A DNA stretch of 64,000 nucleotides. Source: Bdellovibrio sp. GT3. Lineage in GTDB: Bacteria; Bdellovibrionota; Bdellovibrionia; Bdellovibrionales; Bdellovibrionaceae. Below are positions 2,405 through 53,360 of this stretch, in pieces; position 1 is the first letter of the stretch; each line of letters begins with the position of its first letter. The notes beneath the pieces are model-generated. The model saw nothing but the letters and a program-made list of their open reading frames with translations. It was not told where the DNA came from and did no database searches. The position numbers were made by a program, and so were the translations under genes. Location: the NCBI RefSeq assembly GCF_037996765.1, contig NZ_JBBNAD010000005.1, forward strand, positions 838,001-902,000. Reading direction: 5' to 3'.

Positions 2405-2535
2405 TTCCCACCCCTTATCGATGAGTGGGGAATAGCGAAAGCTGTGCCATACCTCAGATTAGCCAGGGCTAATTTCAGACGAGTTACCGGGTAATATGGT
2501 GAAAACGATGTCCAAAAATTGGTCAGCTTACCCGG

Positions 2536-18061: not shown

Positions 18062-18907
18062 GTGAAAGCATTAACATCGACTTTTCGTGGTCTTCTAAAA
18101 GCATTTATATTCCTGTTCTATTTGATCGTTTATATGATCACCTCTGCTTCTATTGCCATGGTGGTGCGTGATCGCAACAAACGTCGTCGTAAATTTTCTG
18201 CCAATGCCAGTCGTTACTGCGGATTGATCGCGCGTAATGCCCTGTGGATCAACCTGAAGGTCATTAACAAACCAGCGAAAAAACACGCCGGCAGTTTGCT
18301 AGTCGCAAATCATATGGGCTTTGTGGATATTTTGATGCTCGCTGGAATTGAGCCGATGTCTTTTGTGACTTCGGTTGAGATGCGTGAAACCCCAGTGTTG
18401 GGACCTGTTACCGAGCTTGCGGGCTGTTTCTACGTCGAGCGCCGCAGTCGCACTAAAATTCTAAACGAGATGAAGCGTCTGGCGGATTCGCTAAAAGATG
18501 GTTTGAACATTGTCTTGTATCCTGAAGCGACCTCCACGAATGGCGATAAAGTTTTGCCATTCAAGAAAACGCTAATGATGGCAGCGGCCGAGGCGGGTGT
18601 GCCAGTGCAGCCTGTGGTCATTAACTTTAGAAAGCTGGATGGTCAGGAATTCAATACCGAGAATCGCGATGCGGTTTGCTGGTATGGCGACACGGGGTTT
18701 GTGGAATACTTCTGGAAAACGCTTCGTCTTAAGTCCGTTGATGCTGAAATCGAGTACTTGGATATCATTTATCCGAATCCGGAGGAAGACCGCGGAGTGG
18801 TGGCAGAGAAGGCTCACGCCATGATTTCTGCGAAGTTCGTCGGTGCCAAGCAAGTCAGCTCTGTCGCAGAGCAGATCATGCCGGACCTAGAGACAGACCC
18901 TACTTGA
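18062..18907 (+). CDS. OlsA/PlsC-like 1-acyl-sn-glycerol-3-phosphate acyltransferase
   Basis: 281 residues with an N-terminal membrane helix (about 10-33). Acyltransferase block I is NHMGFVD (HxxxxD), followed by FYVERRS and the block III motif YPEATSTNG. The family transfers a fatty acyl chain to lysophosphatidate, or, as OlsA, to lyso-ornithine lipid. Location 91 bases after the OlsB-like gene favours the latter. The GTG start has no Shine-Dalgarno and lies 7 bases after a TATAAT, which fits a leaderless transcript. Confidence 0.8.
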   Translation: MKALTSTFRGLLKAFIFLFYLIVYMITSASIAMVVRDRNKRRRKFSANASRYCGLIARNALWINLKVINKPAKKHAGSLLVANHMGFVDILMLAGIEPMSFVTSVEMRETPVLGPVTELAGCFYVERRSRTKILNEMKRLADSLKDGLNIVLYPEATSTNGDKVLPFKKTLMMAAAEAGVPVQPVVINFRKLDGQEFNTENRDAVCWYGDTGFVEYFWKTLRLKSVDAEIEYLDIIYPNPEEDRGVVAEKAHAMISAKFVGAKQVSSVAEQIMPDLETDPT

Positions 18908-18939
18908 CCGATACCCCCTGATATGTAAATAATGTGTAA
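18904..18939 (+). promoter_or_regulatory. dinB promoter with 18-bp direct-repeat motif
   Basis: Candidate -35 TTGACC (18904-18909) and -10 AATAAT (18928-18933), spacing 18. The 18-mer TATGTAAATAATGTGTAA (18922-18939) covers the -10 and touches the ATG at 18940. It holds the direct repeat TGTAA-N6-TGTAA (11-bp period). The same 18-mer occurs at the imuA promoter (53246-53263). Confidence 0.6.
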
Positions 18940-20010
18940 ATGAAGAAGATTATCCACGTGGATATGGACTGCTTTTACGCAGCGGTTGAGGTCAAACACA
19001 ACCCGCAACTTAAGGGGAAGCCTTTGGGGATTGGCGGTCCACCCAACTCACGCAGTGTTTTATGTACGGCAAGCTATGAGGCCCGCAAATTCGGTGTCCG
19101 TTCCGCGATGCCATCTTCTCAAGCGGTACGATTGTGCCCACAGCTCATTCTAATCCCTCCGCATTTTGATCTTTATAAAGAGGAAAGTCGAAAGGTTCGC
19201 GAAATCTTCGAACGTTTTACCAAAAAGATTGAGCCACTTTCGTTGGATGAGGCTTATCTGGATGTCTCTGACTGTACCGAGTTCGGTGGCAGTGCCACCT
19301 TGATAGCACAGGAAATCCGGCGCCTGATCTACACCGAATTAAATTTGACCGCTTCTGCGGGAATCGCCCCCAATAAATTCCTGGCTAAGATCGCCAGTGA
19401 CTGGAAAAAGCCCAACGGACAGTTCGTCGTGCGCCCTCAGGATGTCGAAGCCTTTGTGAAGGAGCTTCCGGTGGAAAAGATTTTTGGTGTCGGCAAGGTG
19501 ACGGCGCAAAAGATGCACGACGTGGGTTTGCACACTTTGGGAGATATTCAGAAGTACACGGTGCCCGAGCTTCATCGTTGGTTTGGTTCCCGGGCCCAGG
19601 ATCTTTTTGATTATGCGCGGGGAGTTGATCACCGCGAAGTCATCACGGAGTGGGAAAGAAAGTCCCTGACTGTCGAAGAGACCTATAACAAGGATCTGAT
19701 GACTCTTGAGGAGTGCCGGTCTCGCATTCCGGGGCTCTATGAGGATTTCATCGGAAGACTGGAGCGAGGCCAGTATCAGGAAAGAATCAAAGGCATGGTG
19801 GTGAAGCTTAAGTTCTTTGATTTTAAATCCACCACTCATGAAGAGGTTGTCCAAGGCATTCCTACGGCAGAGGACTTTGAGCGTCTGTTGGAGAAAGCGT
19901 GGCATCGACGGGCTGTTGCAGTTCGATTGATTGGTTTGGGTGTGCGCTTGGGACAAGAGAAGAAAAAGGACGAGCCTAACGACTCATCCCAGCTGAAGTT
20001 CGCCATCTAG
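18940..20010 (+). CDS. dinB: DNA polymerase IV (Y family)
   Basis: 356 residues. The catalytic acids are in place: Asp8 in HVDMDCFYA and Asp103-Glu104 in SLDEAYLDVS. Palm, fingers, thumb and little-finger regions are complete, and the tail SSQLKF resembles a sliding-clamp contact. It copies past DNA lesions. The ATG has no Shine-Dalgarno and is 7 bases after a -10-like element, so the mRNA may be leaderless. The promoter shares an 18-bp sequence with the LexA-controlled imuA promoter, suggesting joint damage control. Confidence 0.95.
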   Translation: MKKIIHVDMDCFYAAVEVKHNPQLKGKPLGIGGPPNSRSVLCTASYEARKFGVRSAMPSSQAVRLCPQLILIPPHFDLYKEESRKVREIFERFTKKIEPLSLDEAYLDVSDCTEFGGSATLIAQEIRRLIYTELNLTASAGIAPNKFLAKIASDWKKPNGQFVVRPQDVEAFVKELPVEKIFGVGKVTAQKMHDVGLHTLGDIQKYTVPELHRWFGSRAQDLFDYARGVDHREVITEWERKSLTVEETYNKDLMTLEECRSRIPGLYEDFIGRLERGQYQERIKGMVVKLKFFDFKSTTHEEVVQGIPTAEDFERLLEKAWHRRAVAVRLIGLGVRLGQEKKKDEPNDSSQLKFAI

Positions 20011-48027: not shown

Positions 48028-51000
48028 CTAGCCCAGTGGCAGAACGTTGATGGCGCGTATATTGGTGATGTTGCCCACCTTTTCCACTTGTCCCTGAATT
48101 TCAAGCAAGGATCGTCCGTAGATCACCTCGCGATCTTTTTGATAGACGTCGGGATGGATAACGATATTCATAAATCCAAACTCGTCTTCCAAGGTGATAA
48201 AGCACATTCCTTTGGCCGTGGGTGGGCGTTGGGTGACAGAGACCAGTCCCGCCACTCGCACTTTGCGCTTGTGAGTGATTCTTTCCAGATCAGCTGATGT
48301 TGCATATGGAACATACCGCTGCTCGATCAGGGAATGATTCTTCGCCGTCAGATAAGAGCGCAGCACCGACAATGGATGCGAATCCACGGAAAACCCCTTG
48401 GTGTCATACTCGCGGCGCATGCGATCCCAGTTGGATTCAAACGGCAGGCTTTCGTTATTCTCATCTTCATCATCAAAAGAACCTTGAGTCAGGATTTCCT
48501 TCGGCTGTCCCCAAAGAAAGCTGTTTTGATCCAGGCTTAAAGCTTCGATATGCCAGATCAGTTCCCGTGCGTTTTGCTGGAAGCACTCCATGGCGCCTGC
48601 GGCAGCAAGCTTTATCAAAACACTGCGGGGCAGGCGCGTGCGATGGATGAAGTCTTTCAGATCCTTGAAGGGGCCATTGAGTTTTCTTTCATCCTCAATA
48701 GTGCGGGCCATTTCCTCGGGGAGGCCATACAGGGATCTTAAACCCACACGCAATTTGTGAATGCTGGCGCCTGAGGGAGTATAGGCATTCACTGCGCAGG
48801 GTTCTTCCAGGGTGTAATCATAGTCCGAGCGTTGAATGGATAAAGGCAGAACTTCAACGCCATTTCTTTGCGCTTCGGAAATCAAAGTGCGGGGAGCATA
48901 AAACCCCATGGGCTGACTGTTTAAAAGGCCACAGACAAAAACATCGGGATGATTGCACTTTAAATAGCAGCTCGCGTAAGTAAGCAAAACAAAGCTTGCG
49001 GCGTGGCTTTCTGGAAAACCATAGTTCGCAAAGCCCTCGATGGTGGAGTAAATCTGCTCGGCATATTCCTGGGAAATGCCGTGATTCTTAAACCCTAAAA
49101 GAATGCGGTCACGTATGGCACTCATTGTGCTTTTCTTGCGCCAGGCTGAAGACATGATTCGACGAAGCTCGTCGGCTTCGCCCGGCGAGAATCCTGCTGC
49201 AACGATCACGATCTTCATCACCTGCTCCTGAAAAATAGGAACACCGTGAGTGCGCATTAGAATCGGTCGTAAATCAGGATGCGCATAGGAAACCGCTTCC
49301 AGTCCCTGGCGTCGGCGCAAGTACGGATGAACCATGCCTCCTTGCAAAGGGCCGGGTCTGACCAAAGCCACCTCGACGACTAAATCATAAAAATTCCGGG
49401 GCATCATGCGCGGTAAAGTCTGCATTTGCGCGCGGGACTCGATTTGAAAAACGCCAACCGTATCCGCGCGACAAATCATGTCGTAAGTGGCTCTGTCGTC
49501 GCCGGGCAGTGACGCCAGATTAAAGTTAATGCCTTTGTGATTTTTTAAAAGATCAAAACACTTTCTTATACAAGTCAGCATTCCCAGACTTAAAACGTCG
49601 ATCTTCATCAGTTTTAGAACGGCGACATCGTCTTTATTCCACTGAATGACATAGCGGCCATTCATGGTGGCTTTTTCAACCGGCACCATCTCAGTGATAG
49701 GATCCTGAGTGATCAGGAATCCGCCGGTGTGAATTCCCAAGTGACGGGGGAAGCCATGCAGTTGCCCGGCCATTTTTAAAAATAGCATCCACATCTCGGG
49801 GCTTTCGACGCCGAAGCGTTTGTGAATGGTCGGATCTTCAAGCAAGCGGCGCATGCCATCGCGGCCCATGAACTTTACCATCTCATTAATTTTCGCCAAA
49901 GAGATACCAAAGGCTTTTGCGGTTTCCCGAATCGCCATGCGCGAGCGATAGCGTACCACTGTGCAGACCATGGCGGCGTGGCGTTCGTTATATTTTTCGT
50001 AAATATACTGAATCACTTCCTCACGGCGGCTGTGTTCAAAGTCGATATCGATATCCGGTGGTTCACGGCGCTCGCGGGAAATGAAGCGCTCAAATAATAC
50101 GTCGATCTCTTTGGGATTCACCGAAGTCAGACCGATGCAATAACAGACGATAGAGTTCGCCGCTGAACCACGTCCTTGATACAAAATTCCCTGGCGATCG
50201 GCGAATTCACAAATTTCACGTAATGTAAGAAAGTAGTCCTCGTACTCCAGTTCTTTGATCATTTCCAGTTCATGTTCAATGGTCTTAAGAACCTTGGGGG
50301 AAGCGCCTTCGGGGAATCTCCACTTGATTCCTTCTTCAACCAGGAAGCGCAAATATTCTGTCGGAGTCTTACCAAGCGGTAAGCTTGAGCGTGGATAGCG
50401 GTAGCGAATCTCATCCAAAGTGAAGTTCACACGTGCCGCGATTTCCACAGTTTTTTCCACAAGGTCGACGCGATCGGCCCATCTGGAGCTGATTTCCGGG
50501 AGGGATCTGAGTGAACGTTCAGCATTTTGGATCAATTTGTCGCGCGCTTCTTCCAAAGTCGTGTGATGAAGAACGCAAGTCACAACATCGAACAAAGGTT
50601 TTCTTTCGCGTGAATGCATGAATGGACGCTGACTAACGAACAGTTGGGCGCCACATTTTTGTTCAAGTTCCAATGCTTGTTTGTAGAATTCCTGCGATTC
50701 CCAGGTCAGATCCCGCCATACTGGAATGTACAGGCGATCCTTAAAAATCTTTTCTAAACTGTCATAGCGTTTTTCATCAATGGGCGGCAAAGCTAAGCAA
50801 AGTAAATCCTGATTGTACTTTTCGATCTGCTCCAAACGCAGGGAAGAAAATCCCTTGGCGGCCTGACGCTTGCCTAAAGTTAAAAGCTCGCACAGATGGG
50901 TGTAGCCATTCTTGTTCATGGGAATCAGGGTGATCGTACTTTCATCCGTCAAAGTCAGTTCGGATCCCACAATATAACGGAATCCATCCTTGGCCTTGGA

Positions 51001-51240
51001 GGAGGCGGTGAACATCGAAGGAGTATTGGCGGTTTGAAATCCCCGGGCAACACCGTAAAGACCATTTAGATCACACATCGCGATGCCATCATAATTATGA
51101 TGAATTGCAGCTTCGACCATTTCTTCAGGCGAAGAGGCTCCGCGCAGAAACGAAAAATTACTGCGCCCCAAAAGCTCGACGAACCCTTTGGCTGTGCGAA
51201 CAACAGATTGTGACTGACGAATTTGAACAGATTTATTCAT
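48028..51240 (-). CDS. dnaE2: error-prone DNA polymerase DnaE2 (ImuC)
   Basis: 1070 residues. The N-terminal PHP region starts at LLGRSNFSFLRGASSPEEMV and is followed by the C-family palm with PPDIDIDFEHSRREEVIQY (catalytic Asp residues in DIDIDF), fingers, and a C-terminal OB-fold (RKVRVAGLVSVTQRPPTAKG). DnaE2 lacks the replicase tail region that binds tau and works with ImuA and ImuB in mutagenic lesion bypass. Here it is the third gene of that operon. The first PHP metal-ligand pair is not conserved, as usual for DnaE2. Confidence 0.95.
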   Translation of the reverse strand: MNKSVQIRQSQSVVRTAKGFVELLGRSNFSFLRGASSPEEMVEAAIHHNYDGIAMCDLNGLYGVARGFQTANTPSMFTASSKAKDGFRYIVGSELTLTDESTITLIPMNKNGYTHLCELLTLGKRQAAKGFSSLRLEQIEKYNQDLLCLALPPIDEKRYDSLEKIFKDRLYIPVWRDLTWESQEFYKQALELEQKCGAQLFVSQRPFMHSRERKPLFDVVTCVLHHTTLEEARDKLIQNAERSLRSLPEISSRWADRVDLVEKTVEIAARVNFTLDEIRYRYPRSSLPLGKTPTEYLRFLVEEGIKWRFPEGASPKVLKTIEHELEMIKELEYEDYFLTLREICEFADRQGILYQGRGSAANSIVCYCIGLTSVNPKEIDVLFERFISRERREPPDIDIDFEHSRREEVIQYIYEKYNERHAAMVCTVVRYRSRMAIRETAKAFGISLAKINEMVKFMGRDGMRRLLEDPTIHKRFGVESPEMWMLFLKMAGQLHGFPRHLGIHTGGFLITQDPITEMVPVEKATMNGRYVIQWNKDDVAVLKLMKIDVLSLGMLTCIRKCFDLLKNHKGINFNLASLPGDDRATYDMICRADTVGVFQIESRAQMQTLPRMMPRNFYDLVVEVALVRPGPLQGGMVHPYLRRRQGLEAVSYAHPDLRPILMRTHGVPIFQEQVMKIVIVAAGFSPGEADELRRIMSSAWRKKSTMSAIRDRILLGFKNHGISQEYAEQIYSTIEGFANYGFPESHAASFVLLTYASCYLKCNHPDVFVCGLLNSQPMGFYAPRTLISEAQRNGVEVLPLSIQRSDYDYTLEEPCAVNAYTPSGASIHKLRVGLRSLYGLPEEMARTIEDERKLNGPFKDLKDFIHRTRLPRSVLIKLAAAGAMECFQQNARELIWHIEALSLDQNSFLWGQPKEILTQGSFDDEDENNESLPFESNWDRMRREYDTKGFSVDSHPLSVLRSYLTAKNHSLIEQRYVPYATSADLERITHKRKVRVAGLVSVTQRPPTAKGMCFITLEDEFGFMNIVIHPDVYQKDREVIYGRSLLEIQGQVEKVGNITNIRAINVLPLG

Positions 51241-51290: not shown

Positions 51291-52613
51291 CTAATCAAAA
51301 TATCCGTGCAGGTAGTACTGCGAGCTGACCTTATCCTGAAAAATCCAAATCAACTGTCCCTGTTGAGAAAGAGCAAAATAGTAATCCCGGTGTTTTAGTT
51401 CCTGCGATGAAATCTGCCACCACGAAGATTCAATTCTTTCGCTGGGCATAGAGGAAACAAAACGTAATTTCTGAACTTCATGGGCATTCAGTGCCTGGGG
51501 TTTTTCCAAAAGCAGGGAGGGGCGAGGGCTTTCTTTTAAACCTTTGGCATAAACTGTTTTTACCTGCAGGGCATTGTCCTGTCTTTCAACCAAGTCCTCG
51601 GATTTAAAATCCTCGGGCCACTCGGTGACCAGTTGAAAACTTTTTTCCGGAAAGTGACTGGCTTCGACTTGTAAAAAACCCATCTCGCAGTTGGCCTGTT
51701 TGGCAAAACTGATCAGGCGGCGCCAGCGGTCCTCGGAATTATCACGGGGCTCGAAAAAATCCAGTTGTTGGATTTTCTCGGGCACGTCGTAAACGGCGAC
51801 CTCGAATTCCCGGATGGGATTGCTGAGTTCGGTCTTCTCCATTTTCTTATAAAGAAGATCCTCGAACAATTCCTGATCACGGCTGGCGCTGATGGGTTCA
51901 ATCGAAAGCAGATAACGTTTGTCAGAGTATTCACAGTGCAGGATCACTTCCATTTTGTGCGCATATCGGGAGAGGCCATTCAGGCGCGCAAACAAAGTGT
52001 CGAGCACGGGTTTGATCCGGTTAAAAAGCAAAGGCACGGCGCCTAAGGGATCATCCAGGTAGCCATACCCCACAAGAGGGTCGCGAGGCACAAGAGGTGA
52101 AATGACCTGAGAGTCTTGAGAATGCAAACGATTCCAAAGTAAAACACCGAAATCCCCCCACCGCTCGCGTAGTGAAACCAAACGGAAATTATAAACTTCT
52201 TCCAGGGTGCAAACACCCAGAGTGCGGGCAAACGAGATCACGTGCTCAATCAGGCGCTTTTGTGACCAAGGATTCATGCCCTCAAGATCCTTTAGCGCAT
52301 CAAGACCGAGACCTGAAAACTCACGATGTTCAGCACCACGAGGAGCCACAGTGAAAGGTTTCCACTTGGCCAGCATTTGCGCGACAGGTGCAGTGTCGGC
52401 AATGGCAGCGCTTGCGTCCGCGCTGAACTTACGAGCGATCTCGATGGCTTTCTGTAAAACTCCATTGTCTCCTCCTAGAAGGTGAGCAGTTGATTCAATG
52501 TCGACAAAAATAAAATGCGGAAAGCGAAACTGAACGCGCGGGCTGAGTAAAAGAAAAGCCTCAGCTGAGGAGCTTTCTTGCTGTGTTTTTAAATTGATGC
52601 ACAAAGTTCGCAT
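51291..52613 (-). CDS. imuB: ImuB-like inactive Y-family polymerase
   Basis: 440 residues. Residues from about 35 (HFIFVDIESTAHLLGGDN) follow the ImuB plan, but the N-terminal 70-80 residues of usual ImuB (finger/palm start) are missing, and the catalytic acids of Y polymerases are absent. A sliding-clamp motif QLDFF sits at 283-287. ImuB is the scaffold that brings ImuA and DnaE2 to the clamp. The gene overlaps imuA by 53 bases. Confidence 0.88.
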   Translation of the reverse strand: MRTLCINLKTQQESSSAEAFLLLSPRVQFRFPHFIFVDIESTAHLLGGDNGVLQKAIEIARKFSADASAAIADTAPVAQMLAKWKPFTVAPRGAEHREFSGLGLDALKDLEGMNPWSQKRLIEHVISFARTLGVCTLEEVYNFRLVSLRERWGDFGVLLWNRLHSQDSQVISPLVPRDPLVGYGYLDDPLGAVPLLFNRIKPVLDTLFARLNGLSRYAHKMEVILHCEYSDKRYLLSIEPISASRDQELFEDLLYKKMEKTELSNPIREFEVAVYDVPEKIQQLDFFEPRDNSEDRWRRLISFAKQANCEMGFLQVEASHFPEKSFQLVTEWPEDFKSEDLVERQDNALQVKTVYAKGLKESPRPSLLLEKPQALNAHEVQKLRFVSSMPSERIESSWWQISSQELKHRDYYFALSQQGQLIWIFQDKVSSQYYLHGYFD

Positions 52614-53217
52614 AAATCATACTCCCTGCGACAGTAAACGGTGTGGGGCGGTGAAGAGCTCGTTGAATGGTTATGAAATCTCTTTGGAACTGAATGATCA
52701 GACTGAAGAGAGGGTTCACGAACTTGCTCGCCTTGTGACAGACAAAAATCAAAGCCACCTTATGAAAGCGACAAAGTTTTTTTAGTTTTTGCAGTTGGTG
52801 ATTCTTGAAAAACATCTCTTTCAATTCACAACCAATCACTTCAAACAAGGAACTCGTCACCAGTTCCTGCAATACCCAGAAAAGTTGTTCAGCTTCCTTG
52901 GGTTCCTTTACGACGAGCAACTTTTTCAAGTTGATCTTGCGACTCATCAGGTGCGCGGGAAGCAGTTGTGTCCCGCCATTCACCCACGCGACCCATTTGT
53001 TATCCTCGTGTGCTTTTTGAGTCATGCTGACCCATAAAGAGGTGGCACCGGTTCCGGGACTTCCTTGAAAGAGACTGAGATCTCCTTTGGGGATTCCCTT
53101 CCATAAAAGGAAGTCATCCAGGGTGCTCACTCCCGTGGGCACCCCGGGAGGAGGTTGCAGTTGATCTGCGGAAACAAACTGAATGTCAGACAAAGCGGGA
53201 AGGGCGACGGCACTCAC
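52561..53217 (-). CDS. imuA: ImuA-like RecA-related mutasome protein
   Basis: 218 residues with a RecA-like core. The phosphate-loop region reads FQGSPGTGATSLW, with Ala where Walker A needs Lys, so ATP hydrolysis is unlikely at this site. ImuA proteins bind ImuB and RecA in the SOS mutasome. The start is GTG at 53217 with GGAGG 6 bases upstream. It is the first gene of the cassette, directly behind a LexA box. Confidence 0.88.
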   Translation of the reverse strand: MSAVALPALSDIQFVSADQLQPPPGVPTGVSTLDDFLLWKGIPKGDLSLFQGSPGTGATSLWVSMTQKAHEDNKWVAWVNGGTQLLPAHLMSRKINLKKLLVVKEPKEAEQLFWVLQELVTSSLFEVIGCELKEMFFKNHQLQKLKKLCRFHKVALIFVCHKASKFVNPLFSLIIQFQRDFITIQRALHRPTPFTVAGSMIYANFVHQFKNTARKLLS

Positions 53218-53234
53218 AAGTAACCTCCATTTAC

Positions 53235-53263
53235 ATATTAGTTACTATGTAAATAATGTGTAA
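53235..53263 (-). promoter_or_regulatory. imuA promoter with LexA box and shared 18-mer
   Basis: On the minus strand, -35 TTACAC (53263-53258) and -10 TAATAT (53240-53235) are 17 bases apart. The palindrome TTACTATGTAA (53242-53252) in the spacer is an exact match to the TTAC-N3-GTAA LexA site published for Bdellovibrio bacteriovorus. The plus-strand sequence TATGTAAATAATGTGTAA (53246-53263) is identical to that at the dinB promoter. Confidence 0.75.
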
Positions 53264-53298: not shown

Positions 53299-53360
53299 AA
53301 AAGGTACGGACTTACCTGCAATGGTAAGTCCGTACCTTTGCAGGTAAGTCCGTACCTTTT
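53299..53360. repeat. triple repeat able to form two exclusive hairpins
   Basis: Three copies of a roughly 17-base unit (GGTAAGTCCGTACCTTT) lie here, the first inverted. Arms 53299-53319 and 53340-53360 are a perfect 21-bp inverted repeat. The first arm also pairs for 17 bp with the middle copy (53323-53339) around a 6-base loop. It lies in the noncoding stretch 53218-53473 between divergent genes. Confidence 0.8.

Follow-up and report, generated by a model that had tools for sequence, protein, structure and literature searches.

A direct-repeat element shared by the dinB, imuA and lexA promoters of Bdellovibrio as a predicted LexA operator arm

The window, a stretch of 64,000 nucleotides from Bdellovibrio sp. 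GT3, contains the 18-bp sequence TATGTAAATAATGTGTAA in front of dinB and again at imuA. We consider it highly likely that this 18-mer constitutes one arm of a LexA operator, at which LexA would repress dinB and from which DNA damage would free dinB together with lexA and the imuA-imuB-dnaE2 cassette. As is characteristic of an SOS box, the arm is present at the lexA promoter, is common to DNA-damage genes while being rare elsewhere in the genome, and overlaps the core promoter at dinB, where the predicted -10 hexamer lies within it.

Occurrence and specificity of the 18-bp element

The preliminary description of this DNA had pointed to an identical 18-mer at two sites, one of them touching the dinB start codon, and had read it as a direct repeat TGTAA-N6-TGTAA with an 11-bp period. 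All of this is borne out: the copies lie at 18922-18939 (+) and 53246-53263, the first directly abuts the ATG at 18940, and the repeat and its period are as described. Relative to its own gene, the imuA copy has the opposite orientation to the dinB copy. Many further copies elsewhere, which the same description had named as evidence against its reading, are not found, as a search of the 3.58-Mb genome yields exactly two exact copies, those at dinB and imuA. With up to three mismatches, the window holds no match beyond these two (shuffle expectation 0.03), and the genome contains three more, all at three mismatches, compared with none for the reversed control. One of the three, AGTGTAAATAATATGTAA (C5:222653-222670), is located ~20 bp upstream of lexA.

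The proposed genome search for the bare TGTAA-N6-TGTAA gave a divided answer. This form is not enriched, with six genome matches compared to eight for the control, and was rejected as a motif; nevertheless, three of the six are dinB, imuA and lexA, which indicates that the inner bases count too. The arm core TTACAYATWWTTTACA occurs without mismatch in the GT3 genome solely at lexA, dinB and imuA. Within the window, AT-rich arms of the GTAA-N7-GTAA form are confined to exactly three places, namely dinB and the two arms of the imuA operator. Weaker arms with one or two mismatches, including a site near a BrnT-like gene (C6:14146), remain at control level in the GT3 genome and were not retained.

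Predicted operators at imuA and lexA

The imuA copy of the 18-mer forms one half of a 33-bp symmetric operator (TTACATATTAGTTACTATGTAAATAATGTGTAA on the + strand; spacers 7, 3 and 7) and overlaps its inner palindrome (Table 1). This operator is the sole perfect match in the genome to the four-half-site pattern, with 0 mismatches, followed by lexA with one mismatch. Further candidates for full operators in the GT3 genome, a two-mismatch site at C4:16505 and the three-mismatch sites, were set aside as being at control level. No -35 or -10 element of imuA could be fixed with confidence on its own strand; the scan matched the other strand only. Upstream of imuA, positions 53300-53360 carry repeats of AAGGTACGGACTTACC and its complement, and hairpin-like repeats of other sequences are likewise found upstream of imuA in sister species. 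Another TTAC-N3-GTAA palindrome, TTACCGGGTAA, is present at window positions 2484-2494; it has no arms and looks like a chance match.

Table 1 Features of the dinB and imuA regions in the window.
Feature	Position	Strand	Description
Predicted dinB -35 hexamer	18904..18909	+	TTGACC; sigma-70-type scan; shares bases with the stop codon of the acyltransferase-like gene upstream
18-mer at dinB	18922..18939	+	Single arm GTAA-N7-GTAA; half-sites 18925-18928 and 18936-18939; - strand reads TTACACATTATTTACATA
Predicted dinB -10 hexamer	18928..18933	+	AATAAT, inside the arm; sigma-70-type scan
dinB	18940..20010	+	DNA polymerase IV; NCBIfam NF002677, 489 bits; Pfam IMS
dnaE2	48028..51240	-	Error-prone DNA polymerase; NF004225, 1177 bits, cut-off 939
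imuB	51291..52613	-	Y-family-like accessory protein; named by position; no NCBIfam/Pfam match
imuA	52561..53217	-	NF033429 ImuA, 48 bits (curated cut-off 150, not reached); lies ahead of imuB and dnaE2
Full imuA operator	53231..53263	-	TTAC-N7-TTAC-N3-GTAA-N7-GTAA; half-sites 53231-53234, 53242-53245, 53249-53252 and 53260-53263
Inner palindrome of imuA operator	53242..53252		TTAC-TAT-GTAA, TTACTATGTAA; matches the published Bdellovibrio LexA box

The lexA operator of GT3 has a last spacer of 7 and one changed base in the third half-site. Across the genus, most lexA promoters have a last spacer of 8 rather than 7, resulting in an operator of 34 bp. Apart from LexA (TIGR00498, 180 bits, cut-off 111; Pfam LexA_DNA_bind and Peptidase_S24), the genome encodes no S24-peptidase protein. 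Near the presumed recA (C5:988015, RecA-like second match), no arm match was found.

Conservation within the genus

The pattern TTACAYATWWTTTAC has 96 matches in the 24 genomes of the genus, compared with two for the reversed control pattern. Assigned by coordinate, 69 of the 96 are located at lexA, imuA and dinB (23 genomes each) and 27 elsewhere, and most genomes hold only about 3 to 5 such sites, clustered on SOS genes. The looser pattern TTACAYA-N4-TTACAYA, consisting of two 7-bp half-sites, gives the same picture with one control match, and the half-site is therefore better written as TTACAYA.

The single arm at dinB

The absence of a TTAC-N3-GTAA palindrome at dinB, as previously described, is confirmed in the window and extends to the aligned dinB promoters. 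The sigma-70-type scan predicts a promoter of the form TTGACC-18-AATAAT (10/12 matches) with a transcription start at ~18940, at the ATG itself. As no Shine-Dalgarno-like or other ribosome-binding sequence precedes this ATG, the dinB mRNA is probably leaderless. The TTGA of the -35 hexamer overlaps the stop codon of the preceding gene, but TTG is also kept at this distance in species whose upstream DNA differs.

Among 22 aligned dinB loci of the genus, of which 19 were chosen by protein alone and three were picked up via the motif itself, all eight half-site bases of the arm are invariant. The spacer is conserved to at least 95% at six of its seven positions, while conservation drops to 36-77% between the -35 hexamer and the arm; part of the spacer conservation is expected from the -10 hexamer alone. 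The dinB block could accordingly be seen as merely a strong leaderless promoter with its start-codon context, its identity with the imuA site being incidental, and the good -10 hexamer 18 bp after TTGACC as well as the contact with the ATG would fit such an account. However, the GTAA on both sides of the -10 hexamer is invariant, is unneeded by a promoter and survives reversal of the element in related genera. Furthermore, the same sequence is differently placed at imuA and lexA, in opposite orientation relative to the gene, and the few sites per genome cluster on SOS genes. We regard a promoter without an operator as very improbable here.

Arm orientation and lexA promoters beyond the genus

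The dinB orthologues of related genera keep the arm, which is reversed in some of them. This genus, g3 and four g6 genomes have the GTAA-N7-GTAA form, and the TTAC-N7-TTAC form is found in g2, g7, g8, g12, g19, g20 and a single g6 genome, in two cases with one base changed. Mapped onto the DinB tree, arm orientation needs three changes, at least two of which are forced by well-supported branches; the long branches of this tree make the exact number unsure. In four g6 genomes (G005, G030, G036 and G039), the dinB reading frame begins further upstream.

Of 45 genomes, 41 have an exact direct repeat at lexA, and 37 have TTAC-N3-GTAA there (with one end base free). Two species of a related genus (G004 and G023) possess only a GTAA-N7-GTAA arm before the ATG of lexA, with no TTAC-N3-GTAA, and in G060 both lexA and imuA have the arm only. 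Judged by these sequences, it is the arm rather than the palindrome that the promoters have in common. Several related genera have lexA immediately ahead of imuA (L154, L155, L156, L157 and L158, with the matching imuA loci), so that a single operator may serve both.

Proposed recognition of the arm by LexA

A damage-response operator with two half-sites on the same face of the DNA, as suggested by the preliminary description, is supported as a predicted site. That description had left the choice between a second operator distinct from the LexA site and an extended form of it. The LexA-site form is favoured over a distinct operator, since 23 of the 24 genomes of the genus carry the arm at lexA, since the known LexA box incorporates it at both lexA and imuA, and since two species of a related genus have a lexA promoter with the direct repeat only. 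Both the placement, which is of the autoregulation type, and the embedded LexA box point to LexA as the binding protein.

In sequence, the arm consists of two TTACAYA half-sites arranged as a direct repeat 11 bp apart, and we postulate that one LexA dimer would span this repeat. At lexA and imuA, two arms are set face to face, sharing the inner TTAC-N3-GTAA. At dinB, LexA bound to the single arm would cover the -10 hexamer and the predicted start, thus excluding RNA polymerase; as the half-sites here have no palindromic partner, affinity may be lower than at lexA. DNA damage would lead LexA to cleave itself, stimulated by RecA, and so to release dinB, lexA and imuA-imuB-dnaE2 together; dinB is very probably damage-induced through LexA. 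Structurally, the DNA-binding domain of LexA comprises residues 9-76 and the peptidase domain starts at ~109, leaving an interdomain segment of roughly 33 residues. This segment is long compared to solved LexAs, and in the Thermotoga LexA it consists of a few residues only. Such a longer tether could allow a tandem orientation of the two domains, but a long linker is no proof of direct-repeat binding.

An alternative mode of binding would place two cooperative LexA dimers on the arm, each on one TTAC with a degenerate partner (TTAC-N3-NTAN). The inner TTAC-N3-GTAA has been described in the literature and occurs at the majority of lexA and imuA sites, and some N7 variants (AYATTAT) still match the missing partner weakly at TA, in keeping with this arrangement. 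The partner positions, however, are unconserved, with N7 ending in TTAT, TAAT, TATT, TAAA or TTTC depending on the locus, and the flank of the second dinB half-site varies; we consider the two-dimer arrangement unlikely, though worth keeping in mind.

The direct repeat could also be bound by a second, LexA-independent damage regulator, for instance of the XRE type like Myxococcus DdiA, with LexA restricted to the palindrome. For Myxococcus, a LexA co-regulator of this kind is reported (PMC12288472), and dinB and the radical SAM genes described below have the arm without the palindrome. Against this, nearly all genomes have the arm at lexA, where in G004 and G023 it is the sole site, and no dedicated partner regulator gene was found beside the sites in the GT3 genome, which renders a separate regulator improbable compared with LexA itself.

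Whether the arm is also the basic operator unit throughout the Bdellovibrionaceae, with TTAC-N3-GTAA being a mere junction of two facing TTAC-N7-TTAC units, is a proposal to which we assign even chances. If true, the family would join inverted-repeat and alphaproteobacterial direct-repeat LexA recognition in one repressor and one regulon.

Comparison with known LexA systems

The binding motif of LexA changes more than that of most repressors, and in many bacteria imuA-imuB-dnaE2 and dinB are among the usual translesion genes under LexA control. The LexA regulon of B. bacteriovorus was reportedly found by Campoy et al. in 2005 to comprise only lexA and an imuA-type cassette. Compared to SOS regulation elsewhere, the core regulon predicted in the GT3 genome is very small, consisting of three transcription units without a recA site. 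What appears to be new is the proposed direct-repeat form of the LexA operator, along with a predicted widening of the SOS regulon by dinB and, in some species, by other repair genes. With dinB predicted to join what had been taken for a two-unit regulon, these findings bear on mutagenesis in a predatory bacterium.

For B. bacteriovorus, PMC8565304 cites TTAC-N3-GTAA as the LexA motif. It has the same TTAC/GTAA half-site, and both the lexA and the imuA operator described here are built around it. It differs in that dinB and several repair genes carry a direct repeat with no palindrome, and that outer half-sites flank the palindrome at lexA and imuA (33 bp, or 34 bp at most lexA promoters). A palindrome-based search would miss dinB. 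The alphaproteobacterial LexA box is a direct repeat, GTTC-N7-GTTC (PMC8565304; Caulobacter, PMC9578287), and resembles the arm in its 4-bp half-sites, direct-repeat arrangement, 7-bp spacer and 11-bp period. In contrast, the half-site of the arm is GTAA instead of GTTC, its spacer is AT-rich, and at lexA and imuA an inverted repeat is present alongside the direct one. These genomes bear on how LexA passes from inverted to direct repeats or back, as they contain operators that combine the two repeat types, single arms that point either way and lexA promoters that have the direct repeat only. Such mixed arrangements mean that a single protein and a handful of DNA fragments would suffice to test the transition.

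Further arm-bearing loci in the genus

A putative DNA modification/repair radical SAM gene (rSAM_link_UDG, TIGR03916) with its TIGR03915 partner bears the arm in six species when the looser pattern is included (L223, L227, L235, L240, L294 and L295). Here, the arm lies 4-5 nt ahead of the ATG, as at dinB. With this leaderless, arm-over-start layout, the gene is a candidate SOS gene; the GT3 genome has no such site. In G056, the arm precedes a radical SAM gene of the PA0069 family and, after it, a helicase-like gene, and G050 has a second operator ahead of imuB.

A pair encoding MobMystA (an XRE regulator) and MobMystB (a Fic protein) is associated with the arm in seven species (L222, L224, L225, L232, L233, L234 and L242); G037 carries the arm at this pair as well as at dinB, imuA and lexA. 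The pair lies ~200 bp downstream of a single arm, which is followed by TTGAC, and it is possibly a damage-controlled, toxin-antitoxin-like cassette. Small proteins of ~43-75 amino acids starting with MGA or MSA (M[GS]A[FIM]xE) are encoded just downstream of arms at L231, L239, L246 and L293, in L246 followed by mutM. They have no significant Pfam match and could represent SOS-induced small regulators. TTAC-N3-GTAA is absent from the arm at every radical SAM, Fic and small-protein site that was inspected. A family of ~200-amino-acid proteins adjoins the arm in three species (L228, L239 and L296), and the two members tested have no Pfam match. At L236 and L293, two arms face each other with N17 rather than N3 between the inner half-sites (a 21-bp instead of a 7-bp register), suggesting that each arm is a unit in its own right.
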